A stretch of 45,255 nucleotides of DNA, from the IMG/VR virus record IMGVR_UViG_3300021471_000008, positions 1 through 45,255 of that record; one strand, given 5' to 3'. Under the pieces are notes generated by a model. It saw only the letters and a program-made list of their open reading frames with translations. It was not told where the DNA came from and searched no databases. The first letter of the stretch is position 1. The number at the start of each line of letters is the position of its first letter. Made by a program: the position numbers and the translations under genes. The stretch comes from a virus. Shown in pieces: positions 2,902 through 25,599 of the stretch.

Positions 2902-3480
2902 ATGATTTTTGATGAGGAGTTCTATAATGGAGGAGCTGGTTACCCTAAATACTCTGAGTTTTCTCATTTTAAAACACGTGCAGAGTGGTTAAGTAAAAAT
3001 TTTCCAGATGAAAAAATTATAGTTATAGGTTGTGCATATGGTTATTTACTTAACTATTTACCAGACGCTGTAGGTATAGATAAAAGTGAGTATGCTTATA
3101 AACAGAAAGTAAATGATAGGGTTTTTCTTGCCGACGCCTCTAAATATGATTATACTGATTTTACTCTTATTGTTTCTTATAATGTCCTTGATTGTATGAC
3201 TGATGAAGAAGTAAAAAATTTTATTTCTTGTTCTTCTAAACTTAAACATTATCACGTTCTCTGTTTTTACGAAGATGACAATATGGCAGAAGAGTATAAA
3301 AAATATGGTTATTTTATACAGGATAGGCAATGGTGGTTCGACCTTTTTTCTGTTGTTGAACAAGATGTTTATCTTGTCGAGTTTGCTACTGGATACGTCT
3401 GGTTTAAAGCTGCAGGAGAAAAAGAGTTTACTAATACTTCTCTTAAAAGTCCTATTACTGAAGTTAAGGTGAGTGATTAA
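2902..3480 (+). CDS. Class I SAM-dependent methyltransferase-like protein, 192 aa
   Basis: Motif I is visible as IVIGCAYGYLLNYLPD, followed by an acidic ribose-binding position in VGIDKSEYAY. A motif IV-like region is at LIVSYNVLDCMTDEEV. This arrangement is typical of Methyltransf_11/SAM-binding Rossmann proteins. No DPPY-type motif is present, so it is probably not a DNA amino-methylase. Small molecules, sugars or protein are likelier targets. It overlaps the fibre gene at 3480 by one base, which hints at modification of a fibre or of its glycan receptor (inference). Confidence 0.65.
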   Translation: MIFDEEFYNGGAGYPKYSEFSHFKTRAEWLSKNFPDEKIIVIGCAYGYLLNYLPDAVGIDKSEYAYKQKVNDRVFLADASKYDYTDFTLIVSYNVLDCMTDEEVKNFISCSSKLKHYHVLCFYEDDNMAEEYKKYGYFIQDRQWWFDLFSVVEQDVYLVEFATGYVWFKAAGEKEFTNTSLKSPITEVKVSD

Positions 3481-5282
3481 TGGGTAATTATAGTGTTCCA
3501 ACGACTAATAATTCACGTGTAGCTGACAGTTCAAGAAATTGGCTAGCTGCATGTGATACTGGTATAACTGACGCTGATACTTCTAATGAATATATTTTTG
3601 CTACTTTTGTTCATGAAGATAGTGCACATGCTGGAACAACAATAAATTTTAAACTCCAATGGAGAAGGGTAGGAGGAACTTGGGCAGATGTAGGTTCTGA
3701 TACAGAAATCTGTTGGGGTATAAATACTGTATTAGTTGATGGTACTAGTCCAGTAGGTTCTAGTGCGGGCTGTCAAACCGCTGATTACAGTCAGGAGAAT
3801 GAGGGAGATAACAGTGTAATCTATGGAAGTAAGTTACTTAATGTATATGTTGAGATACAGTGGGCTATAGGTTTTGGTTCTGGAGTACAAGGAAATCAAG
3901 AATATGAACTACAGATATATGACAATGATGAAAGTGTTGGTTTAGGTGCTTTTTCTGCTACTATAACTACTGCCGCTGTTCAACAAAGTGCTACAGATGA
4001 TAGAGCAGTAAGTGTGGAAATAGAAAAAACTGGAGTAGAAGACAGTTCTGTAAACATAAATATAGAACTCTCTGCTACTCAAGATAGAGAAACTTCTGTA
4101 GATATAATTTATTTTTCTACAGATGATAGAGATATAAGTTCAAATATAGAACTTTTTTCTTTTATCGACAGAAACCTTTTATTAGATATTGAATTACCTA
4201 TCCAGAGCGGATTAGTAGATATAGATTTAGTTGCTGAAATAGAAAATTTTTTTACAGAAGATAAAAATATAAACATAAATATAGAAAATTTTTCTACTGT
4301 TGATAAGAATATTTTTTTAGGTATAGAACAATTAGATTATTCTGATAAAGATATTTCTTTAGAAGTAGAACAATCTCTTTTAGAAGAAAGGTCTATAAAT
4401 GTAGAAGTAGAACTTACTAATATAACAGATAGAGCTGTTTCTGTAAATATAGAAAAAACTTTTACTTCTGACAGAAATCTTTCTACCTTTATCAATTTAC
4501 CTATTTCTAGCGATTACTCTAACAGAAATTTATCTATTGAAATAGAGACTTCGTCATTATCTGATAAAGCTGTAAATATAAACATCGAACTTCTAAATAC
4601 AGAAGATAGAGTTTTAGAAGTAAACATAGAACGTTTCTCTTCTGATAATATAAGTCTTTCTACTAATATAGAAAACCTTTCTTTTTCTGACACAAATGTT
4701 TCTATAGATATAGAACTTCCTAGTTTGTCAGGTTCGGAAGATAGAAGTTTGATTACAGAAATAGAAATAGAAACAGAAGAAGATAGACAGGTAGATGTTA
4801 GTATAGAACAATTATCCTCTTCTGACATTAATCTTTCTATTGATATAATCTATAAATCTATAGATAATAGAAACTTAAGTTTAGAAGTAGAAAAAGTTCT
4901 TATAACAGATAGAAGTTTATCTTCAGAAATAGAGAAAAGTTTAACTGAAAATAGAAATCTTTCTTTAAATATAGAAGAACTTTCTACTTTAGATAGAAAT
5001 ATCTCTTTAGATATAGAACTTTTTAATTATTCAGATACAGGTTTATCTGTTGATGTAGAAAAACTTTTAAGTGCAAAAGAAGATAAGAATATAAGTCTAA
5101 ATATAGAAGTTTACAATTCAGAAGATATAAACCTTTCTATTGATATAGAAAGTTCTCTTGAACGAGAGGCAGATAGCGCTTATATAGTTATAGAAGATAG
5201 TTATATAGCTAAAGTATATTTAGAAGATAGTCTAACAGCTAGTTTAGTTATAGAAGATAGTTATGGAGGTAGAGAAAAATAA
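3480..5282 (+). CDS. Repeat-rich tail fibre, 600 aa with about 25 copies of a 14-residue repeat
   Basis: The N-terminal ~165 residues form a beta domain related to the modules of the large minus-strand fibre (both have a W-L-A-A core after a Ser/Arg-rich start). From about residue 170 to 565 the protein is a tandem array with consensus D-R-N-L-S-L-x-I-E plus five variable residues. Alternating hydrophobics suggest one beta strand per turn, as in a beta-solenoid or intertwined fibre shaft. The C-terminus has Tyr/Asp-rich repeats (VIEDSY). It starts at ATG 3480 overlapping the previous stop, behind GGTGAGTGAT. Probably a receptor-binding fibre shaft. Confidence 0.7.
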   Translation: MGNYSVPTTNNSRVADSSRNWLAACDTGITDADTSNEYIFATFVHEDSAHAGTTINFKLQWRRVGGTWADVGSDTEICWGINTVLVDGTSPVGSSAGCQTADYSQENEGDNSVIYGSKLLNVYVEIQWAIGFGSGVQGNQEYELQIYDNDESVGLGAFSATITTAAVQQSATDDRAVSVEIEKTGVEDSSVNINIELSATQDRETSVDIIYFSTDDRDISSNIELFSFIDRNLLLDIELPIQSGLVDIDLVAEIENFFTEDKNININIENFSTVDKNIFLGIEQLDYSDKDISLEVEQSLLEERSINVEVELTNITDRAVSVNIEKTFTSDRNLSTFINLPISSDYSNRNLSIEIETSSLSDKAVNINIELLNTEDRVLEVNIERFSSDNISLSTNIENLSFSDTNVSIDIELPSLSGSEDRSLITEIEIETEEDRQVDVSIEQLSSSDINLSIDIIYKSIDNRNLSLEVEKVLITDRSLSSEIEKSLTENRNLSLNIEELSTLDRNISLDIELFNYSDTGLSVDVEKLLSAKEDKNISLNIEVYNSEDINLSIDIESSLEREADSAYIVIEDSYIAKVYLEDSLTASLVIEDSYGGREK

Positions 5283-6316: not shown

Positions 6317-6570
6317 ACAACCGCAAACGTGTCTGGTCTGCCCTTTTTGAGTTGTGGAAAGGTATAAGCTTACGTGAGGCTATGCGCATACATAAAGCAG
6401 ACCTTCTTGCTTATCTTGATGGTAAACATCCAAAGGAGTTGTATATACCAGCTATGAATATAATAATTAATAAAGAAGATTATATACTTTTAATAAAATT
6501 GAATAAAGATTTAATTCTTGAAAATAATAAAGTAAAGGTGATAAATTATGAAACAAACTTTTCTGAGTAA
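6313..6570 (+). CDS. Hypothetical HTH-like protein, 85 aa, probable CUG start
   Basis: The first conventional start in this frame, TTG 6352, would cut into a helical region. The frame is open back to 6307, and CTG 6313 lies six bases after AGGTGA (6301-6306), overlapping the XPF stop. With CTG the protein begins N-N-R-K-R-V-W-S-A-L-F-E-L-W and continues KGISLREAMRIHKADLLAYL, which resembles a helix-turn-helix. The C-terminal half is beta-like and hydrophobic. A DNA-binding role beside the nuclease is plausible but unproven. It overlaps the methylase start. Confidence 0.55.
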   Translation: MNNRKRVWSALFELWKGISLREAMRIHKADLLAYLDGKHPKELYIPAMNIIINKEDYILLIKLNKDLILENNKVKVINYETNFSE

Positions 6571-7444
6571 AGGTTTACCTAACAATCCTAAACCTTTTCC
6601 TGTTCTTTTCTGGATGGGTAGTAAAACTAAACTTCTTCCTCTTTTAGACCCTTTTCTTATAGAAGCGAATGGTCTAAACTACTATGAACCTTTTGTAGGT
6701 GGAGGAAGTGTTTTCTGTTACCAATTCAGAAAAGAAAGGTTGAAAAAAGGTATAGTCCTTAACGATAAAAACATTTATCTTATATCTTTTTATCGTTATC
6801 TTAAGGAACAACCTTATACTTTTATACAGGAAATTTTTAAATATGATAACAAAAACAATAAAGAAGATTATTTAAAATTAAGAGAACGGTTTAATAAACT
6901 AAAGGATAATATACATTCTAATCTTGAACTTCGAGAAATGGTAGGATTGTTCTATTATCTAAACAAAACTTGTTTTAGAGGAGTTTTTGACCTTGACAAG
7001 AAAAACAATTTTAGAGTGGGTTTTGCTTACAGACCTAAAGCTAAAATAGTAGATATAAAAGGTTTTGTCCATCTTTCTGGTGCTTTACAAAAAGCTAGAT
7101 TGATTAATGCAGATTTTGAACATATTCTGCCAATTGAAGATAGTTTTGTTTATTTAGACCCTCCTTATCATTTGTTACACGACAACTATACTTATAGTGG
7201 TTTTAGTGAAGAAGACCATAAAAGATTAAGAGAATATACAAAAAAGTTAGATAAAAAAGGATGTAAGGTAGTTATGAGTAACTCTTTAACAGAACTTATA
7301 TCTGACCTTTATGATGACTGGTTTATATATAGTTTTGAAAACAAGTATAATGTGAATAAGAAAACTGTAAAGGAGTGTATAATAAGCAATTTTGAACCAA
7401 CAAAAAGTTTAAATAAGATGGAAAAGTATAATTTTAGTAGGTAA
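6548..7444 (+). CDS. dam: Dam-like (D12 class, alpha) DNA adenine-N6 methyltransferase
   Basis: A 298-residue D12-class methylase. Motif X is seen at WMGSKTKLLPLL (near 22), motif I at YYEPFVGGGSVF (near 50) and catalytic motif IV at YLDPPYH (near 205), in the order of alpha-class enzymes. It should transfer methyl from SAM to adenine N6 in a short target. Dam relatives recognise GATC, but the target cannot be read here. GATC is almost absent from this genome, which makes the true target interesting. SD AAGGTGAT precedes ATG 6548, overlapping the upstream gene. Confidence 0.85.
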   Translation: MKQTFLSKGLPNNPKPFPVLFWMGSKTKLLPLLDPFLIEANGLNYYEPFVGGGSVFCYQFRKERLKKGIVLNDKNIYLISFYRYLKEQPYTFIQEIFKYDNKNNKEDYLKLRERFNKLKDNIHSNLELREMVGLFYYLNKTCFRGVFDLDKKNNFRVGFAYRPKAKIVDIKGFVHLSGALQKARLINADFEHILPIEDSFVYLDPPYHLLHDNYTYSGFSEEDHKRLREYTKKLDKKGCKVVMSNSLTELISDLYDDWFIYSFENKYNVNKKTVKECIISNFEPTKSLNKMEKYNFSR

Positions 7445-15080: not shown

Positions 15081-15321
15081 AGGAAAAGTTAAAACCTATT
15101 CTATCTCTGACCTTTTTGGTTGTAGAAAGGTTGCACAGATGAAGGTTAAGCCTTTTCTTAACAGGTTAGAAGAAAAAGATTATCAAGAAGTTATAGGAGA
15201 ACTGGATGAATATATTGATGAAGAAGGAGAGATAGTTATATATACTAAACTTGAACATGACGCAATTGGAGACGAAGACGTTTTTCTTATTATAGCCAAA
15301 GAGGTGAAGATAGATGAGTGA
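15067..15321 (+). CDS. Hypothetical protein, 84 aa
   Basis: ATG 15067 follows AGTGATAAAA, overlapping the previous stop. The sequence has KTYSISDLFGCRKVAQMKV and an acidic C-terminal half with beta strands (EGEIVIYTKLEHD). It is immediately upstream of the methylase and overlaps it by eight bases. Not recognised. Confidence 0.5.
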   Translation: MLMYKGKVKTYSISDLFGCRKVAQMKVKPFLNRLEEKDYQEVIGELDEYIDEEGEIVIYTKLEHDAIGDEDVFLIIAKEVKIDE

Positions 15322-16114
15322 AAAGTATGAATTTAAGGATATAACTGTTTACTTTGAAGACTGTATAAAGGGTATATATGATAAGGTTAAACGTGGTTCA
15401 GTAGATATGGTTTTTTGTGACCCTCCATTTGGTATAAATTTTATTTCTCGTAGTGACTGGACATATAGTAGGTCTAAAAAAAGTAGGATAGGAGGATATA
15501 AAGAAGTAAAAAAAGATGAGTACAGAGAATTTACTGAGAAGTGGATAAATGCAGTAGACTATGCAACTAAAAACAATGCTACTATTTATATAGTTAGTGG
15601 CTGGACTAATCTACATCATATACTCGATTATGCTATAGAGGGCAAAGGTTGGTTTCTTATGAACCATATAATCTGGTGGTATAATAATCCTTTACCTACA
15701 CTTAAAAAGTTTAGAGCCTGTCATTATCATATAGTTGTTTTTACTAAAAGCAAAAACATTTTTATACAGAACAAACACACTTTTAACATTATTGACAATC
15801 GTGAGTCTCCTTATCTTGATGTTTGGCAGATATCAAGGGATATGCGTAAAAAAGAGTATATACCCAACGCTACTAAACTTCCTCACGAACTTGTTCGTAG
15901 ATGTGTTCTAACCAGTTCTAATGAAGGAGATTTAGTTCTTGATTGTTTTGTTGGTAATGGGACTACACCTGCTGTTTGCCTTGCACATAACAGAAGGTTT
16001 ATAGGTTTTGAGATAAATTTAAATACCAGAAAAACAATAAAATATATAGTTGAAAAAGAGTATAAACTTAAAGAACAAAGAAACAATCTTATGAATTATT
16101 TATCGGGTGAATAG
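15314..16114 (+). CDS. Beta-class DNA methyltransferase (N4-cytosine or N6-adenine)
   Basis: Motif IV comes first, MVFCDPPFG with DPPF at 36-39. The SAM-binding motif I comes near the C-terminus (LVLDCFVGNGTTPAV). This circular order marks the beta class. The 266-residue length is normal. It should methylate one base in a short site; DPPF does not separate N4C from N6A decisively. No restriction partner is adjacent, so it is a solitary methylase, likely protecting viral DNA before packaging. SD GAGGTGAAG precedes ATG, and the large terminase follows at once. Confidence 0.85.
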   Translation: MSEKYEFKDITVYFEDCIKGIYDKVKRGSVDMVFCDPPFGINFISRSDWTYSRSKKSRIGGYKEVKKDEYREFTEKWINAVDYATKNNATIYIVSGWTNLHHILDYAIEGKGWFLMNHIIWWYNNPLPTLKKFRACHYHIVVFTKSKNIFIQNKHTFNIIDNRESPYLDVWQISRDMRKKEYIPNATKLPHELVRRCVLTSSNEGDLVLDCFVGNGTTPAVCLAHNRRFIGFEINLNTRKTIKYIVEKEYKLKEQRNNLMNYLSGE

Positions 16115-17800
16115 ATGAACGAAGATTTTCCTCCTTGGAACTGGGAAGTATATAATCCCAAAGAAGAAGACGAAGAACTGGATTTCTATAAAGAACTTTG
16201 TCCTCTTATAGCTAATAATGTAGAGTATTGGTGTAAATATGAGTTAGATTTTGAACCTTGGAAGTTTGATAAAAAAAGGAGAGAAAAGATACTTAAATAT
16301 ATGAAAAAAAATAAGATAGATACAAATATTTATTATCCTCTTTACGGTTTTGGTCAGTTGGATGGAATAAAGGCTATGGTCAATCCTGACATACGTGAAG
16401 TAGTTATAGTTGCAGGTAGAAGAAGCGGAAAAACCATGAGTTATTTTGCTGCTACAACCTTTCTTGCCTGGAACAACTTTTCTTTTTTTAATCCCCCTCG
16501 TTCTCCTATGGGAGTTATAGTCTGTTCTCATAGAAGAGAACACGCTGTAGATGTTATAATGAGTGAAATAAAGTCTAGATTGAACTATACTAAAAACATA
16601 AAGAACTATATTACTAATGACTCAAAGATGAGTATAGAGTTTGGTCCTATAAACACCACTATTTATTCTATACCCACTTCAAGATATGAACAAGTAAAAG
16701 GTTATACTAACCCTCTTAAGATTTTTATGGATGAAACAGTTCTTATAAAGGATAACAGAGTTTTTTCTGCTATACGTCCTTTACTTAATCAACGTGGAGT
16801 AGTTACACTTGAAGATGGAACAAAAAAAGAGTATAATATAGGTATGGTTCTTACTTCTACTCCAGAGGGTATGAACAACTACTTTGCTTCTCGTTTCTTC
16901 CTTGCACAGGAAAAGGATAGTATGCTTTCTCTTCGTTGGCACAGTCTAGACTCTCCATATGTTAACTATAAAGGAGTTATAGACGAACTTCTTGAACCCA
17001 ATTGTGACCTTCTTATGTGGAGACAAGAGTATGGAGCAGAGTTTCTCTATGTAGCTAACTCCTTTTACACTCCAGAGTGGGTAGATAAAAGCATAAATTT
17101 TGATTTAAGACCTTTTGGTGAACTTACTCCTTCTTACCGACCGCTCTATTGGGGTATAGACTGGGGAGCTGTAAGAGATAGTACAGTTATATGGGTTTGG
17201 GAAGATATGGGTAACAGATTAAGATTTAAATTTGCTGAAGAGATAAGAAATACAGAGTATGATGAGCAGGTAGATAGAATAGTTTATCTTTCCACAATTA
17301 TCAAACCTACCATTATTAAGGCTGACCTTGCTGGTAGAGCACAAAACACTATTCTGGCTAACAAATATGGTTTGCCTCTTTCTCCTGTTGAGGGAGTAAG
17401 TATGAACCTTCAAGGTAAACATCATCTTTATATGCACGCCAAAACCATGCTTCAGGCAGGTTATCTTGAATGTCCGCCTAATCCTAAATGGAGAGAACAG
17501 ATGATAGGTATATCTGCAACAAAATCTATGAACGGAGTATATCTTTCGTTTAGTAAGGAACATGTAGGTTTTGACGATTGGGTAGACGCTTTTGTTCTTG
17601 CTACTTCATGTAAAGAACTTATAGGCGGAGTTTATAAACCACAGAGTTATACCAGTAAAACTTCTATTAAGGATATAGGTAGAAAAGATTTTTCTTCTTA
17701 TCGTCCTGTCAGTCGGACTATTACTTCTCGTTCTCGTAGGCGTAAAACTTGGGCAGAGAAGAAGGAAGAGATGGAGAAAGAAAGAAAAAAAGTGAAATAG
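16115..17800 (+). CDS. terL: Terminase large subunit, 561 aa
   Basis: The DNA-packaging motor. Walker A is AGRRSGKT (100-107) and Walker B is KIFMDE with D206/E207. The coupling motif LTSTPEG (near 247) follows. The C-terminal RNase H-like nuclease has YWGIDWG with D349, KADLAG and DDWVDAF. All catalytic positions appear intact. The C-terminus is very basic. Normal length, start ATG 16115 after GGGTGAATAG, abutting the methylase stop. It is on the plus strand, opposite to portal and capsid, unlike the usual single late operon. Confidence 0.92.
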   Translation: MNEDFPPWNWEVYNPKEEDEELDFYKELCPLIANNVEYWCKYELDFEPWKFDKKRREKILKYMKKNKIDTNIYYPLYGFGQLDGIKAMVNPDIREVVIVAGRRSGKTMSYFAATTFLAWNNFSFFNPPRSPMGVIVCSHRREHAVDVIMSEIKSRLNYTKNIKNYITNDSKMSIEFGPINTTIYSIPTSRYEQVKGYTNPLKIFMDETVLIKDNRVFSAIRPLLNQRGVVTLEDGTKKEYNIGMVLTSTPEGMNNYFASRFFLAQEKDSMLSLRWHSLDSPYVNYKGVIDELLEPNCDLLMWRQEYGAEFLYVANSFYTPEWVDKSINFDLRPFGELTPSYRPLYWGIDWGAVRDSTVIWVWEDMGNRLRFKFAEEIRNTEYDEQVDRIVYLSTIIKPTIIKADLAGRAQNTILANKYGLPLSPVEGVSMNLQGKHHLYMHAKTMLQAGYLECPPNPKWREQMIGISATKSMNGVYLSFSKEHVGFDDWVDAFVLATSCKELIGGVYKPQSYTSKTSIKDIGRKDFSSYRPVSRTITSRSRRRKTWAEKKEEMEKERKKVK

Positions 17801-17801
17801 T

Positions 17802-17936
17802 ATGCGAAGTGAAAAAGAGATAAGAGAAAAATTGAGAGAAATGTATAGAATGAAGGTAAAAAATAATACTATACTAATAAAGTTATTTATAGAAAAAACT
17901 TTAAGATGGGTTCTTGGAGAAGAAGAAACCATTTAA
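17802..17936 (+). CDS. Small basic helical protein, 44 aa
   Basis: ATG 17802 lies one base after the terminase stop; AGTGAAATAG serves as SD. The peptide is a charged helix (EIREKLREMYRMKVK) and then a hydrophobic helix ending LGEEETI. The stop TAA 17934-17936 overlaps the beginning of the longest phosphoesterase frame, which supports a later start for that gene. Function unknown. Confidence 0.5.
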   Translation: MRSEKEIREKLREMYRMKVKNNTILIKLFIEKTLRWVLGEEETI

Positions 17937-17950
17937 ATGAGAGTGATAAA

Positions 17951-18694
17951 TTGTTAAAAAAGGATTTTGATAAATACGAGATAATTGTTCCCCTTGGAGA
18001 TATACATCTAGGTTATGGAACAGTAAATATGGTTAAGGTTCAGAAGGTTATAGAGTTTATAAAGGAGAACAATGCTAAATGGATAGGTATGGGAGACTTA
18101 ATAGATAACACTCCTCCTATACACAGATATTTTGACATGAAAAACGTTACCATGACCCCACAAGAACAGGTTATAAATATAGTTAATCTTTTAAAACCTA
18201 TAAAGGATAACTGTCTTGGTCTTCTCTATGGTAATCATGAGATAAGGTCTATAGAGTATAAAACAGGTTATGACCCTATTATTCAGATGGAAGAAATGTT
18301 AGGTTTAGAAAAAAGAGGATTAGGTTCACAAACTTTTTTTAATATCAATGCTGGTGTTTGTAAATACTCTGTTTTTGCTACACATGGTTCAACAAGGGGA
18401 ATATTCTTTTCTACACGTAAGGGTTATAAAATTAACAAACTTCTTTCTTTACACAACCTTGCTATAGCCGACCTTTATCTTATGGGTCACCTTCATGACA
18501 CGGAGTGGACAACTGCCAACTATCTTGTTGGAGAAAAGGAGATATCTACTTCTTATTTCGTTATGACTGGTGCGTTTGTAGAGTATTTCGGTTCATATGG
18601 AGAAAGGTATGGTTATAACCCAGTAGAAACAGGATGTAATGTAATCTTCCTTGGTAAGAAGCGTAAAAGAATAATAATAGAGAGGCTTGTTTAA
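17951..18694 (+). CDS. Calcineurin-like metallophosphoesterase, 247 aa
   Basis: The full metal-binding set is present: GDIHLG, GMGDLID, LLYGNHE, THGS and MGHLHD, so it is probably an active dinuclear phosphoesterase. Relatives include Mre11/SbcD-type nucleases and phage phosphatases; the lack of extra domains points to a stand-alone enzyme. The longest frame begins at ATG 17906, but that overlaps the upstream peptide and has no SD. TTG 17951 follows GAGAGTGAT with good spacing, so I prefer it (ATG 17906 would add 15 basic residues). A role in DNA-end processing near packaging is inference. Confidence 0.82.
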   Translation: MLKKDFDKYEIIVPLGDIHLGYGTVNMVKVQKVIEFIKENNAKWIGMGDLIDNTPPIHRYFDMKNVTMTPQEQVINIVNLLKPIKDNCLGLLYGNHEIRSIEYKTGYDPIIQMEEMLGLEKRGLGSQTFFNINAGVCKYSVFATHGSTRGIFFSTRKGYKINKLLSLHNLAIADLYLMGHLHDTEWTTANYLVGEKEISTSYFVMTGAFVEYFGSYGERYGYNPVETGCNVIFLGKKRKRIIIERLV

Positions 18695-18971: not shown

Positions 18972-19010
18972 TAATTGGTAATTGTGGAAGTGTCTACGAC
19001 ATATATATGG
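18972..19010 (+). promoter_or_regulatory. Shared regulatory element, copy 2, with promoter of the TGT-like gene
   Basis: TAATTGGTAATTGTGGAAGT (18972-18991) is followed by a TATA-like ACATATATATGG (18999-19010). This predicts a start near 19030 and a very short leader before ATG 19040. It is the copy most clearly placed as an upstream element of a promoter. Confidence 0.6.
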
Positions 19011-19039
19011 GTAGATATATACACATTATGGTGAAAAAA

Positions 19040-19804
19040 ATGATTTATGAAAAAAAGTTTAAAGATATACTGTTCTTTGCCGACGCACCTTTAGATTACT
19101 ATCCTTACAGGTTAAGAACCTATGATAAATATATGGATAAAGAAACAAAACCTTATGATTATCTAATAATAGATTTAGGTGTATATACTTATCTTGTAAA
19201 AAATAAAGAACATAGATATCCTGAAAAGTTAGAAAGAGGGATGTTCTGTCTTTCATTTGAATTAACAGAAAAAGAGTATGTGGCTGTACCAGACTATCCA
19301 CCTATAAATTTTGAGTTTAACAAGAAAATAGATTACAATAATATAGAGTTAACTATAAAAAATTGGTTAAAGTTTAAAGAAGCAAAAACAAAAAATTGTA
19401 TATTTACTATACAGTTTAGTGAAATAATGAACCATAGTATAATAAAGGATGAAATAAACATGTATCCAGAACCTCCTTCAAAATTTTTGGGTTTAGGAGG
19501 ATTGTGTAGAATTATGGGTTCATTAAAAGAAAAAGAATATATGAATTATGTTATGAGAGAAATAAAAAGAAGTTTTCCTAACCACTTTATACATGTCTGG
19601 GGAGCTAGTATATGGCACTTAAATAGTATGAGAAAAATAGGTATAAATAGTTTTGATAGTGCTAAATGGAGTAGACCAGTAACACGTAAATTACCTAATC
19701 GTTCTGCAAAAACGAAAAAAGAAAGTATACAGTTCTTTAATGCTTATATAGAAAGGATTTATAATATAGAAAAAAATACTAAATTATCAGACTTTTTAAG
19801 ATAA
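19040..19804 (+). CDS. TGT-superfamily base-exchange enzyme, DpdA-like
   Basis: Resembles tRNA-guanine/archaeosine transglycosylases and their DNA-acting relatives (DpdA). YDYLIIDLGVYTY (D45) matches the TDSGGFQ region holding the first catalytic Asp. VAVPDYP and FTIQF follow in family order. LGLGGLCRIMG matches the glycine loop, and HVWGASIWHL...GINSFDSAKW carries the nucleophile Asp (D206). At 254 residues it is far shorter than archaeal tRNA enzymes and has no PUA domain or obvious zinc-binding triad, which favours a DpdA-like role: putting a 7-deazaguanine into viral DNA. No preQ0 genes are present, so the base would come from the host. Start ATG 19040 follows ATGGTGA. Confidence 0.65.
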   Translation: MIYEKKFKDILFFADAPLDYYPYRLRTYDKYMDKETKPYDYLIIDLGVYTYLVKNKEHRYPEKLERGMFCLSFELTEKEYVAVPDYPPINFEFNKKIDYNNIELTIKNWLKFKEAKTKNCIFTIQFSEIMNHSIIKDEINMYPEPPSKFLGLGGLCRIMGSLKEKEYMNYVMREIKRSFPNHFIHVWGASIWHLNSMRKIGINSFDSAKWSRPVTRKLPNRSAKTKKESIQFFNAYIERIYNIEKNTKLSDFLR

Positions 19805-20256: not shown

Positions 20257-23200
20257 TTATACCCCCGTAGGAACATCGTCCTGTGTAAAAAACCTTCCTC
20301 CTGTATCATCCTTACTATCAGGAGGGTTATTAATCATGTCTGCACCAGAGAACGAACTATCCATTTCAAATTTAACCATTATAGGAGCATTAAGCAGTTC
20401 CTGTTCTTTTTTATCTTCAGCCTCTTTGGCTAAAACAGAAAGATAGTCATAGAAACCCTTCTCTTCTCCTCCAGCAGAAAAGGTTATAGTTCTGGTAATA
20501 TAATCAAAAATTATGTTATTAATATAGTAATCTGTATCCTTAAGAACAATATGCATATTAGGATAGTAGTTTTCAAAGTTGAATACATTATCTTCTATAA
20601 GTGTAACCTTAACATTTTCTACTAACTCATTTTCATAAAGATACCTTGCTGCTACAGTAGCAGCGTTATCAGAATAGACCTTAAGCCTTTTTACCATTAT
20701 ATATGTTCCTGTATCTGAAGGTTCTTCAGGATATTTACCATAAGGAATTTTTACTCCTCCTTCAGGATTTTTCTCTCCTATAACCACTACCTGTGCAGGA
20801 ACATTTTTAGCATTATAAACAACTTTAGTTATCTTATCATCATCTAAATCATAGTTAGTTCCTAACCTTTCTCTTATAGTAACACCATTTATACCAGTTG
20901 TATTTACCCAGTCTTCTATTACCATAGTCATACTATGACCAGAAGAAACACCAGTAAAAGTAACCCAGTCATTTACTATACGCCAATCATCATAGAAACT
21001 ATTATAAATATATATTGCACCCTTCCACTCAGAACCAGCCTTATTAAAAACAAGCTTAATAGTATCTAAAGAAGTACTAAAAGTATATGTTTGTAAAGTT
21101 GTTTTTGTGTTATTAGTATATTTATTAAAAATACCACTTAAATCAGATGTTCCATCACCAGATAGTTTTATTTCTACACAGTCCTTAAAACCATTTCCAC
21201 TGTGGTCGAAACCAGCACGAATAGAAATACTTGCGCTAGGTAAACCAATATCTTCTATAATACTATGTGTAAAACCTAATTCTACTTCCCATTCATCTGT
21301 CTCGTTTCTCCATTGAATTTTACTTATATCATCAGAAATACCAGGAGTAAGATTAGGTAAGTCAGAACTGAAGTCTTGTAAATAACAGAAATCCTTAAAC
21401 GCAAGAAAAATTCTTTCCCAACCAGGTGTAGACCAATCATATAGTCCAACCATCCCCATACAAGAAAGACAGTATTTCTCAATTTCATAATTCCACCCCA
21501 TTTGTATCCATTCATCGCATTGTGTACCATCATTCCAGAAAATATATCTTGTAGGAATAGAAGGATGAAAGAACCTTATCTGGTCGGCTATCCACGAGTA
21601 AACAGGTATTTCAAAACCAGTTCTATAAATATTATCTGTTCCACCACCAGAAAGGTTTTTTTCTATATTTACAGGTTGAAAAGTTCTGGAAGGATAAATT
21701 GTTCCGATTTCTATAACTGGATTACCACTTGATACTGTCTGTTTAAGACCTAACATATAAACATTATTAGAAGACATATCTATACCTTCTTCTGAACTAC
21801 CATATCTATTTAACGGATATTCAAATTTTATATCTGAAGTGCTTAAACCAGTTAGAGTCTTATCTGTATATGGAAAGTATGTGTTTATTGTACGTGCGTC
21901 AATCATTGAATATACAAATGTTTGATATGTTGCGTCGTCAACAAGCTTACCAAGGAATAAACCATTACCATAAAGTTTTCTACTATAAGGTGAATAATTA
22001 CGTATATGTGTATAAACATCATTACCCATAGTCTCTCCAGAAGAAATATCATAAGAGTTAGCTATAAGTGCTTCATTGCTTTTAAGTTTAAAAGTTGAGT
22101 CGTAAGCTAGATAACGCCAATTCTGTTGACTGGTTAAATAGTCGAAATACATAGAAGTAAGAATAGGTTTTTTAGGTTTAAAAACGAAAGTTGTCCCTTT
22201 ACAATAATATACATTAGAAGAGTTACTACATAAATCGAGAAGTATTTCCAAAAGGTTTTTATCTACATATTCTTTGTGTAAAATAAAATTACCATCTGTA
22301 ACTAAATTTCTGTTTATAGAAGCAGAAGAACCGTTTTCATCATAATAAATAACCTTATCTAAAAGCTGGTCTACGTGATAATCAGACGTACAAAGTTCTT
22401 CTTTTCCTCCCTGAGTAACTCTTAAAGAAGAAATAAGCCAATAAGCATACTTATTAGCTAAAGTATTAACTATATGCACAGCCTCTACGTCTAAATCATA
22501 TTTACCATCATAGGTACAGTTCTTTTTAGTTACTTTAGTTACTTGACCTTCAAAAAGCAATTTAACGAAACTGGATGAACTTGCTCCTGGTGTACCGCTC
22601 CAGGTAAAATCTGTTCCAAGGGCAACAATTGTTCCCTCCTTTATATCCCAATTAGTGTCATAATCAAAGATGGTAAATTTAAGAGTAGAAAGTTTGTTAA
22701 GTCCTTCATCTTTTTTAAGTTTTATAACCTTATCTATTATTCTAATCCTCGTACTATCATATGAACCATCTGTCCATCGGCTGTTAGTTTCATCATAATA
22801 AGCTAAATCTAAAACTTCATGAGATATAGAAACAGAAACGTTTTTATCAGATTTGTTATATGATTGAACATTTACACTTGTATTTATATTAGAATAAAAA
22901 CTTTGTTCTACCTCAATAAAAAGAGAACGGTCTACTGAACCTGTAAAGATTACATCTACCGAAACTTCTCTATCACTTTTACTTCTTTGTTCTATTTCTA
23001 ATCCTACACTTCTATCCACTCGTGCATGTGCACCTATAATCATGCCTACTTGTCTATCAGAAAACTCGTCTACTTCTATATTTGTAGATATATTTCTATC
23101 TGTTTTTATCTGTTGTTCAATAGTAAAATCTACATTTCTATCTGTAGAAAAAAACCTTTCTATATTAGTTATTAACTGTTTATCTTCTTTTAATATTCTT

Positions 23201-25599
23201 TCTATATTAGTAACTAAAGAAATATTATGTTTACTAAAAAGTTCTACATTTGTGAAAACATCTATATCAACCATAGCATTTGCTATTATCTCAGAAGAAA
23301 GGTTTTTATCTGAATAAAGTTTTTGTTCTATATCATTTATAATTGACCTATCAATTGTTGTAAATCTTTCAACATCAACAGATGTGAAAACATTATATGA
23401 AACTGCTTTTCTTTCTATATTTACACTTACATTTCTATCTTGTGTGGATTTTTTATTAACATAAATAACTGCTGGATTAGTAAACGTCATATAGTTTTTA
23501 CTATAATAAATAAGTGATACATACCAAGTTTCTCCTCTACTAACTCCTGGAGTTTTAATGTAAACCTCTGTTTCTGTTTCTTGTTCAGTAAAACCAGTCA
23601 TAGTCAAATTATTAAGATAATCATTTGCTGTTCCTTCCTGATATTCACCATTTACATCTGTATAACTACCGTCACTTGTTATCCAATAACTATTAACTAT
23701 TGACATTCCGTCATAATCAGATGTAGAACTTACCCCCTGTTGTAACTCTGTAGATGTGCGTGTTAAAGCATTATGTGTCCAAAATGTGTTATCAGTGGAA
23801 TAAGCAAAATAAAAATATCCAGGATTAGAAAAATTTGCTTTATAAGCCTTATGATGAAGTCTTAATCTAAATTCATCACCAGGTTCAATATAAATAGGTG
23901 TATTAATTGCAGCAAGCCAATCATCTTCAGTTCTTGTAGAGATAAGACTGTCGTTAGAAAAACGGTAATCTGTATTATCTATTTTACTATCCCAAACGGT
24001 TACATTTACACTATCACTCGTTTCACCGACGTTTTCGTCATAGAAAGTAATAGTGTAAGTATAAGTGCCTTCGGAAAGAGAGTCTTCTTCAATTTCATAA
24101 GTAACTGGTGTTCCACTAGACCAAGACCCACTGGCAACTTGAGTAGTGCCCCTTTTAATAACATAATTATCAGGATTTTCATCTGTAGCTGTCCAGGAAA
24201 GAGTTTTACTTTCCCAGGTAGACATGGTTATATCGTTAGGAGAAGAGGTTATAACAGGGTCATCTTCTTCAAAAATAGTTATAGTGGGATAAACAATATA
24301 ATTATATGAATTAGTATCAGTATTTACTAATTTAAATCTATAATCAGACTTAGGTGTAGCGTTATATGCCCTTACACACCATTCAAGTTCAGTTTCTTTA
24401 CTACTCCAACCAGTAACATCAACGTTACAAACATTACCATTCTCATTATATTCACCAGTAACATCTACATAACTAGCGTCACTAGCTATCCAATAAGTAT
24501 TAGCTATACTATCTCCATCAGCGTCACCTGTTCCATTAACATCTGACCTAAAATCATTAGATGTGGTTGTTACTTGTGTCCAAGAACCACCGTCTTTAGA
24601 CATATACATAGTCCAAGCATTAGTAAGATAAGCGTTGTTTACTTTTATATGAAAACGAATACGAACAGTTTCACCGTTTTTAAGGGTTATATTAGTGTTT
24701 TTTTCTGCTAACCAGTCATCAGATGAACGATTATGTAAATCACTGTCTTTAGCAAAACGGAAGTCTGTTTGATTAATTTTTATTTCTCTTACATAAACAA
24801 GAGCACTATCATATGCACTATTATCAAAATCATCATATACAGTACAAGAATAGGTATATGTTCCAGCGGTAGTTGGAGCTGTACCGTTATAGTTTATAGG
24901 CGAACCGCTAGACCAAGTTCCACTATCTATTTGTGTTGTATCACGTTTTATGATATAATTATCAGGATTAGCGTCTGTGGCTGTCCAGCTTAAAGAAAGA
25001 GAACCACCAAGTTTAGCAAATGTATTATCTGGAGTGTCAGTAAAAACAGGGTCGTCAAACTCAACTATATTAGCTCTAGCAGTATTAGCATAATAATTAA
25101 AGGTACTAGAACCATTTCTAACTCTAAAATTAAGATAGTCTCCGTCAGCAAGATTACTACTTAAATAAACAACATACTCTACCTCTGTTTCACCAGTCTG
25201 GTCATCTGGAAAACCAGGTCCACCAAGAGTTGTAGAGGCATAATTATCTCCTGCGGCTTCAACTATTTGGTCACCAGTATGTTGAATATCTTCACCAAAA
25301 TTACTTATCCAGTAAGAAGTAGATATACTTCCACCATCGGTAACATAAGAACTATTAGTAAGAAGAACATAAGAGGAACTATCTGTTACTTGGAAATATG
25401 CCCCTCCATTACGACTACACCAAAGTGTCCATTGTCCAGAAGGTAAAGCGTCACCTGTATTACGTATATGAAAACGAAGAATATAAAGAGAACCTTTAAC
25501 AGTATCTATAGCAGTATTTATAGCCGCTTTCCAGCTACGGCTAGAAACACTACTGTTATTACCCCAACGATATGTATCCTGACGAAGATAAGCAGCCAT
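20257..25599 (-). CDS. Giant modular tail fibre / baseplate hub protein, 1,780 aa
   Basis: Residues 1-~690 alternate two modules: A (~180 residues, with Trp-Leu-Ala and YWI...DGSY signatures; three copies) and B (Ig-like, SWTATDANPDNYIIKR; two copies), as A-B-A-B-A. Residues ~700-925 hold about 15 copies of the 14-residue D-R-N-x-S-x-x-I-E repeat also found in the fibre at 3480. From ~930 the protein resembles phage tail hub/endopeptidase-like proteins (IRIIDKVIKLKKDEG, LLEILLDLCSNSSNVYYCKG). A long mixed region with a concanavalin-like patch follows. It likely joins the tail tip to the receptor. ATG 25599 opens MAAYLRQDTYRWG. Confidence 0.75.
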   Translation of the reverse strand: MAAYLRQDTYRWGNNSSVSSRSWKAAINTAIDTVKGSLYILRFHIRNTGDALPSGQWTLWCSRNGGAYFQVTDSSSYVLLTNSSYVTDGGSISTSYWISNFGEDIQHTGDQIVEAAGDNYASTTLGGPGFPDDQTGETEVEYVVYLSSNLADGDYLNFRVRNGSSTFNYYANTARANIVEFDDPVFTDTPDNTFAKLGGSLSLSWTATDANPDNYIIKRDTTQIDSGTWSSGSPINYNGTAPTTAGTYTYSCTVYDDFDNSAYDSALVYVREIKINQTDFRFAKDSDLHNRSSDDWLAEKNTNITLKNGETVRIRFHIKVNNAYLTNAWTMYMSKDGGSWTQVTTTSNDFRSDVNGTGDADGDSIANTYWIASDASYVDVTGEYNENGNVCNVDVTGWSSKETELEWCVRAYNATPKSDYRFKLVNTDTNSYNYIVYPTITIFEEDDPVITSSPNDITMSTWESKTLSWTATDENPDNYVIKRGTTQVASGSWSSGTPVTYEIEEDSLSEGTYTYTITFYDENVGETSDSVNVTVWDSKIDNTDYRFSNDSLISTRTEDDWLAAINTPIYIEPGDEFRLRLHHKAYKANFSNPGYFYFAYSTDNTFWTHNALTRTSTELQQGVSSTSDYDGMSIVNSYWITSDGSYTDVNGEYQEGTANDYLNNLTMTGFTEQETETEVYIKTPGVSRGETWYVSLIYYSKNYMTFTNPAVIYVNKKSTQDRNVSVNIERKAVSYNVFTSVDVERFTTIDRSIINDIEQKLYSDKNLSSEIIANAMVDIDVFTNVELFSKHNISLVTNIERILKEDKQLITNIERFFSTDRNVDFTIEQQIKTDRNISTNIEVDEFSDRQVGMIIGAHARVDRSVGLEIEQRSKSDREVSVDVIFTGSVDRSLFIEVEQSFYSNINTSVNVQSYNKSDKNVSVSISHEVLDLAYYDETNSRWTDGSYDSTRIRIIDKVIKLKKDEGLNKLSTLKFTIFDYDTNWDIKEGTIVALGTDFTWSGTPGASSSSFVKLLFEGQVTKVTKKNCTYDGKYDLDVEAVHIVNTLANKYAYWLISSLRVTQGGKEELCTSDYHVDQLLDKVIYYDENGSSASINRNLVTDGNFILHKEYVDKNLLEILLDLCSNSSNVYYCKGTTFVFKPKKPILTSMYFDYLTSQQNWRYLAYDSTFKLKSNEALIANSYDISSGETMGNDVYTHIRNYSPYSRKLYGNGLFLGKLVDDATYQTFVYSMIDARTINTYFPYTDKTLTGLSTSDIKFEYPLNRYGSSEEGIDMSSNNVYMLGLKQTVSSGNPVIEIGTIYPSRTFQPVNIEKNLSGGGTDNIYRTGFEIPVYSWIADQIRFFHPSIPTRYIFWNDGTQCDEWIQMGWNYEIEKYCLSCMGMVGLYDWSTPGWERIFLAFKDFCYLQDFSSDLPNLTPGISDDISKIQWRNETDEWEVELGFTHSIIEDIGLPSASISIRAGFDHSGNGFKDCVEIKLSGDGTSDLSGIFNKYTNNTKTTLQTYTFSTSLDTIKLVFNKAGSEWKGAIYIYNSFYDDWRIVNDWVTFTGVSSGHSMTMVIEDWVNTTGINGVTIRERLGTNYDLDDDKITKVVYNAKNVPAQVVVIGEKNPEGGVKIPYGKYPEEPSDTGTYIMVKRLKVYSDNAATVAARYLYENELVENVKVTLIEDNVFNFENYYPNMHIVLKDTDYYINNIIFDYITRTITFSAGGEEKGFYDYLSVLAKEAEDKKEQELLNAPIMVKFEMDSSFSGADMINNPPDSKDDTGGRFFTQDDVPTGV

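Follow-up and report, generated by a model that had tools for sequence, protein, structure and literature searches.

The stretch of DNA analysed here, referred to below as the window, is a linear viral record of IMG/VR with a length of 45,255 bases. It is AT-rich and possesses genes for terminase, portal, capsid, protease and tail proteins as well as for a KaiC-type ATPase. Its ERCC4-HHH nuclease is closest to those of Methanobacterium viruses and its terminase shows a weak likeness to that of a haloarchaeal virus; judging the host domain by these nearest relatives and by the KaiC-type ATPase, the tailed virus of the window is likely to be archaeal. Exact-peptide scans with the window terminase and with the protein described next found no kin.

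On the + strand, at 19040-19804, lies the coding sequence of a putative DpdA-like protein of the TGT superfamily, designated P0001. It is 254 amino acids long when read from Met12 of the longest open reading frame (19007-19804, + strand, 265 amino acids), and the residue numbers used here (D56, D217 etc.) count from 19007. The start at 19040, already given in the preliminary description of this DNA, is preferred to that at 19007, as a GGTGA lies directly 5′ of it and the one relative identified, P0004 (see below), begins nearby, at the equivalent of residue ~22. The gene is the last of a same-strand run consisting of an N6/N4 DNA methylase (15314-16114, +; PF01555, E-value 3.7e-37), the terminase large subunit (16115-17800, +; phrog_2, E-value 5.6e-32), a metallophosphoesterase resembling DNA-repair exonucleases (17906-18694, +; PF00149, E-value 1.3e-4; phrog_7339, E-value 7e-29), a small ORF and P0001 itself, with convergent tail genes lying 3′ of it. 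Within 15314-18694, the terminase gene starts exactly at the end of the methylase gene and is then followed by the exonuclease-like phosphoesterase.

There is also a second viral DNA methylase, of the D12 class of N6-adenine enzymes (6548-7444, +; PF02086, E-value 1.3e-43), so that both of the methylases named in the preliminary description are present. A 192-amino-acid ORF (2902-3480, +) with a weak match to SAM-methyltransferases (PF08241, E-value 0.008) is a possible third. Two large ORFs (3480-5282, + strand, and 20257-25599, − strand) carry many degenerate repeats of the DRNxSxxIE type and, though far apart and on opposite strands, are probably structural or tail proteins with a common repeat module. 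No tRNA genes were found in the window, nor were genes for preQ0 synthesis detected among its 31 ORFs scanned with Pfam; the latter absence, also claimed earlier, is provisional as the linear record may be a fragment.

Direct searches with P0001 gave no match in Pfam, NCBIfam, PADLOC, the PDB sequences or the phage and plasmid collections. The TGT domain (PF01702), which was positive in 14/14 control genomes, had no match in the window record, while the DpdA domain (PF23859) did not match P0001 in the Pfam scan and was likewise without a match in the record that encodes P0004. Searching PHROGs with P0001 returned two weak and unrelated matches and neither phrog_887 nor phrog_7068, the models which true phage DpdAs, used as positive control, match with E-values of 5e-28 or better. 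A phage match (MT836543, E-value 8) was rejected as an unrelated protein. Pairwise similarity of P0001 to Escherichia coli Tgt or to DpdA2 of phage nt-1 was not detectable.

The relative P0004 was found on a viral contig of IMG/VR (L090) by a pattern scan of viral contigs that focused on the last two motifs of P0001. The patterns were not real proteins, being either P0001 aligned with a fragment of the Saguaro protein (pattern A3) or short hand-written motif fragments (pattern A6); the A3 scan found nothing, and it was A6 that recovered L090. P0004 has 31% identity to P0001 after alignment (tblastn E-value 1e-15 among the candidates). With the patterns used, 2.9 million viral contigs and the genome collection (genome_contigs) yielded no further relatives, and a DNA pattern for DYPPxxNxEF returned only L090 again together with chance matches. 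The contig is 43 kb in size, with matches to a Linocin/HK97-like capsid protein and a TopoVI-A-like toprim domain, and has two tRNA genes. It represents a virus unrelated to that of the window, the two having in common only the TGT-like gene and a weak ERCC4 match; two further marginal matches lie on frames antisense to genes. In both viruses the TGT-like gene has DNA methylase neighbours. The P0004 gene (L090:6001-6711) has a start codon that overlaps by 4 nt the stop codon of a C5-cytosine DNA methylase gene (L090:5144-6004; PF00145, E-value 7.8e-39), an arrangement that suggests coupled translation of two DNA-modifying proteins.

With hmmsearch, P0001 alone scored above every control for each of three DpdA profiles, one of the margins being narrow: 8.5 bits against 1.9 for the best control with a profile of seven diverse phage DpdAs (s7), 5.2 against 1.9 with a profile of DpdAs of the 7-11 type (d2), and 5.9 against 4.6 with the profile termed 'all'. 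When rudivirus relatives were included in the profile, P0001 scored 15.7 bits, the best among 200 shuffles and the 23 other window ORFs reaching 4.7. For hhalign, where E-values refer to one comparison and not to a database search, P0001 and P0004 together aligned with phage DpdA at 63% (E-value 7e-5; score 39.4, with 20.7 the highest among 100 column shuffles). The profile check against DpdA that the preliminary description had called for was strongest with a combined profile of phage DpdAs and five TGT-like proteins of rudiviruses and bicaudaviruses, reaching 94.9% with an E-value of 4.4e-8 and a score of 59.8; none of 200 column shuffles scored higher than 24.9. An unrelated protein pair drawn from these two viruses as a control gave 13.3. 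When proteins were compared singly, P0001 reached 39.6 and the runner-up among the 23 other ORFs of the window 19.8. The signal does depend on a diverse profile, since in hhalign neither the d2 profile alone nor the rudivirus profile alone (3%, not significant) was separated from controls. In single-sequence comparisons phage DpdAs ranked highest for P0001 and E. coli TGT came last of 73.

It is to be considered whether P0001 could be some other barrel protein with a coincidental match of motifs. The failure of the blind searches, the low confidence of the structure models (see below) and the two profiles that by themselves do not exceed their controls would fit with this. However, coincidence sits badly with a score so far above all 200 shuffles, and with an ordered series of motifs, spanning residues 49-225, in P0001 and P0004 as two independent proteins; such an explanation is considered very improbable, and membership of P0001 in the TGT superfamily is regarded as highly probable.

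The positions that carry this assignment were examined in an alignment of P0001, P0004 and 38 non-redundant phage DpdAs. Nine residues (D56, G58, D96, G164, H196, G199, S215, D217 and S218) are identical in all 38 phage proteins and in P0004, while N119 is shared with P0004 and kept in 37/38 of the phage DpdAs; D56, G58, D96, H196, G199 and D217 are kept also in the homologues of SIRV2, SBRV1 and STSV1. As sequence positions, the catalytic Asp pair (D56, D217) and the base-binding D96 are aligned in all homologues. The motif IDLGVY (residues 55-60; 19169-19186, +) contains D56, which the alignments place at the Asp of DSGAF/DSGGF and which presumably corresponds to Asp102 of Zymomonas TGT by the common numbering. 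Its D and G are found in 38/38 phage homologues, in P0004 and in the three archaeal-virus homologues. VPDYPP (19286-19303, +) contains D96, which corresponds to the Asp that recognises the base (in NLDVI of DpdA and IFDE of TGT); D96 is present in 38/38 phage homologues and invariant in the archaeal-virus alignment also. GLGGLCR (19490-19510, +) corresponds to the LGG loop of the TGT superfamily, with G164 in 38/38 and the pattern GxGxxCR common to P0004. IHVWGAS (19589-19609, +), equivalent to HGFG in phage DpdA and HVLGMS in SIRV2, holds H196 and G199, invariant in both alignments; its His (H196 in the phage 9g protein too) occurs in 38/38 phage homologues. Finally, SFDSAKW (residues 215-221; 19649-19669, +) holds D217, the equivalent of the nucleophile Asp of TGT; its S-x-D-S is kept in 38/38 phage homologues and P0004, and D217 also in the archaeal-virus homologues. 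Both catalytic Asp regions are thus as originally described.

Two replacements at the active site had been overlooked, and both count against calling P0001 plainly a DpdA. The Ser of DSG is Leu in P0001 (DLG) and Pro in P0004 (DPG). The second lies in FTIQF (19403-19417, +), where Q136 takes the place of the His of FHxGE in the viral proteins, or of the Gln of GIIQG in E. coli TGT. This pairing comes from matching the strand CIFTIQ to IIPVIH, and is preferred because the modelled strand 133-136 ends at Q136 and because P0004 carries VIQS at this point, giving Gln in both members of the family. The automatic alignment sets the His of FHxGE six residues later, opposite Asn142. Under either placement this His (H141 in 9g), present in 38/38 phage homologues, is missing from P0001.

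Also in keeping with the preliminary description, this short protein (254-265 amino acids) has neither a zinc site nor a PUA domain. The zinc motif CxCxxC...H is absent, as no Cys occurs beyond residue 167 (E. coli Tgt has CDCYTC), and there is no C-terminal PUA domain, P0001 ending 48 residues past D217; archaeosine TGT chains are 576-577 amino acids long and a PUA domain would not fit.

The loss of the Ser of DSG and the strong divergence of P0001 could be those of a relic with the TGT fold, or of a binding protein without base exchange. There is a precedent in phage Orion, which despite its DpdA gene shows no detectable modification; of the DpdA-only phages measured so far, Salmonella phage 7-11 has trace dADG at 50 per million nucleotides, and a lone DpdA gene is no guarantee of DNA modification (PMC6884629). 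These phages also tell against the exchange in DNA proposed below for P0001. Against the reading as a relic, P0001 and P0004 agree at the three Asp residues, the His and the glycine positions at an overall identity of only 31%, which speaks for an active site still under selection, and loss of activity is deemed decidedly unlikely.

The same replacements, Leu or Pro for Ser and Gln for His, are common to P0001 and P0004, and a changed pocket might mean another substrate: the enzyme would exchange bases in DNA, but the incoming base would be neither preQ0 nor a known derivative of it, or would be guanine itself, with an action perhaps coupled to that of the neighbouring methylases. The overlap of the P0004 gene with a C5-cytosine methylase gene and the lack of preQ0 genes in the ORFs scanned are consistent with such a role. 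There is, however, no positive sign of a different substrate, and archaea generally make preQ0, for archaeosine, so a special base would be unneeded; this alternative is held to be unlikely. An equally unlikely extension of it is that the two proteins mark a new family of DNA base-exchange enzymes, probably of archaeal tailed viruses, that uses a base outside the known 7-deazaguanines or is paired with an adjacent DNA methylase.

Structure models were of limited quality. An AlphaFold model from the single sequence was unusable (pLDDT 32.6) and matched no TGT, whereas a model assisted by an alignment of 40 sequences, DpdAs among them, was of low confidence (pLDDT 56.5, pTM 0.51). In this second model strands and helices alternate and the motifs lie at or just past strand ends. 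The top Foldseek matches in the PDB were mostly TGTs (E-values 0.01-0.04), and the BFVD matches include phage queuine tRNA-ribosyltransferases. With VIA-align, archaeosine TGT gave Z 8.9 (1J2B) and 8.6, and the DpdA structure 7UI4 gave Z 7.6, values that are near the level also reached by common barrels. A fold of the guanine-exchange (TGT-type) barrel is likely; the model is supporting and not independent evidence for it, as DpdA rows were in its alignment.

These archaeosine TGT matches, together with a Gln at residue 136 as in E. coli TGT where viral homologues of the DpdA type have His, keep an RNA target in consideration. P0001 would then be a TGT-type enzyme whose target is tRNA of the host or the virus and which serves to adjust translation or to protect the tRNA, rather than one that modifies DNA; comparable proteins from rod-shaped viruses of Sulfolobus carry the annotation 'queuine tRNA-ribosyltransferase'. 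The advantage in Z over DpdA 7UI4 is however only about 1, in a weak model, and the sequence of P0001 lies closer to the phage DpdAs than to E. coli TGT. The window is also without tRNA genes. A DNA substrate is favoured because of this kinship, the small size of the protein, its lack of tRNA-binding parts, of a zinc site and of a PUA domain, and the DNA methylase neighbours in both viruses; an RNA target is regarded as possible but rather unlikely.

The explanation preferred, on balance and by a little, is that P0001 is a minimal enzyme of the TGT type which exchanges guanine in viral DNA for a 7-deazaguanine made by the host, and so protects the genome. It would be a (beta/alpha)8 enzyme and a divergent viral relative of DpdA, swapping guanines of the virus's own replicated DNA for preQ0 or a derivative. 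By analogy with the TGT superfamily, D217 would attack C1′ of the target nucleotide and D56 would help the guanine to leave, while D96 and Q136 would hold the incoming 7-deazaguanine and the new glycosidic bond would form. The modified DNA and the viral DNA methylases may together hide the genome from host nucleases. Activity, DNA target, identity of the base, its supply by the host and the protection are all predicted here; the reading of the preliminary description, with host preQ0 placed in viral DNA, is supported in part. The chance that P0001 does perform 7-deazaguanine exchange in DNA is put at about even.

In phages, DpdA is known to place preQ0 in DNA; such modification shields the DNA of phage CAjan from restriction (PMC6884629). 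The archaeal tailed virus HRTV-29 has a DpdA without synthesis genes, and use of host preQ0 has been proposed for it (PMC8651126). Guanine exchange is a known viral route to restriction resistance, and among its carriers those with DpdA alone are the least well understood. For such a virus, a host archaeon making preQ0 for archaeosine would be a natural supply of the base, so that a stripped-down enzyme offers a clean test case. The change from His to Gln also bears on what distinguishes the members of the superfamily that act on DNA from those that act on tRNA.

Among known systems, DpdA2 of Vibrio phage nt-1 is a comparable case of a divergent viral TGT-like protein, being missed by PSI-BLAST from 9g DpdA; phage nt-1 carries dPreQ0 (PMC6884629). 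It is longer than P0001 (464 amino acids) and retains DSGG and FH. Salmonella DpdA (7UI4; PF23859) is also longer, at about 400 amino acids, and is picked up by a profile of phage DpdAs and P0001 with an E-value of 0.0037. Archaeosine and queuine TGTs (PF01702; 1J2B, E. coli Tgt) resemble P0001 in the barrel of its low-confidence model and in the Gln at residue 136, and differ from it in their domain match, zinc motif and PUA domain. The TGT-like proteins of rudiviruses and bicaudaviruses (SIRV2 ORF310, SBRV1, STSV1) are likewise from archaeal viruses and share HVxGxS with P0001 and an Asp at all three positions, with LDxP in place of DYPP; unlike P0001 they retain DSG and the His, and they are longer at about 290-315 amino acids.

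With regard to the phage DpdAs themselves, 14 of 79 phage loci retrieved with a DpdA query have two or more DpdA-like ORFs, which frequently follow each other head to tail and share a single base, some overlapping otherwise. Examples are L106:1474-3308, L110:215-2427, L111:117-1921, L131:596-2532, L152:611-2610 and L153:572-2430. Both copies retain all five catalytic-region residues checked; such pairs may form a heterodimer or represent enzymes that differ in target.

P0001 resembles the phage DpdAs of phrog_887 and phrog_7068 (Enterobacteria phage 9g, Mycobacterium phages Saguaro and Typha) in several respects. Motif order and spacing are the same, the D, G, D, N, G, H, G and S-x-D-S positions agree, and both are single-domain, virus-borne proteins without PUA, often unaccompanied by preQ0 genes. 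Identity is however about 13-20%, and the P0001 family has GxGxxCR and KW[ST]R, which phage DpdAs do not. The earlier term 'DpdA-like' holds as far as homology to viral DpdA/TGT-like proteins and the two Asp residues are concerned, without making P0001 a plain DpdA, given the loss of the His of FHxGE and the Ser of DSG. As P0001 matches neither the phrog models nor PF01702, and has neither these two residues nor the zinc site, its sequence would place it outside both DpdA and TGT proper, in a putative new subfamily that stands apart by its divergence within the viral TGT-like/DpdA-like group and may work in the manner of DpdA.
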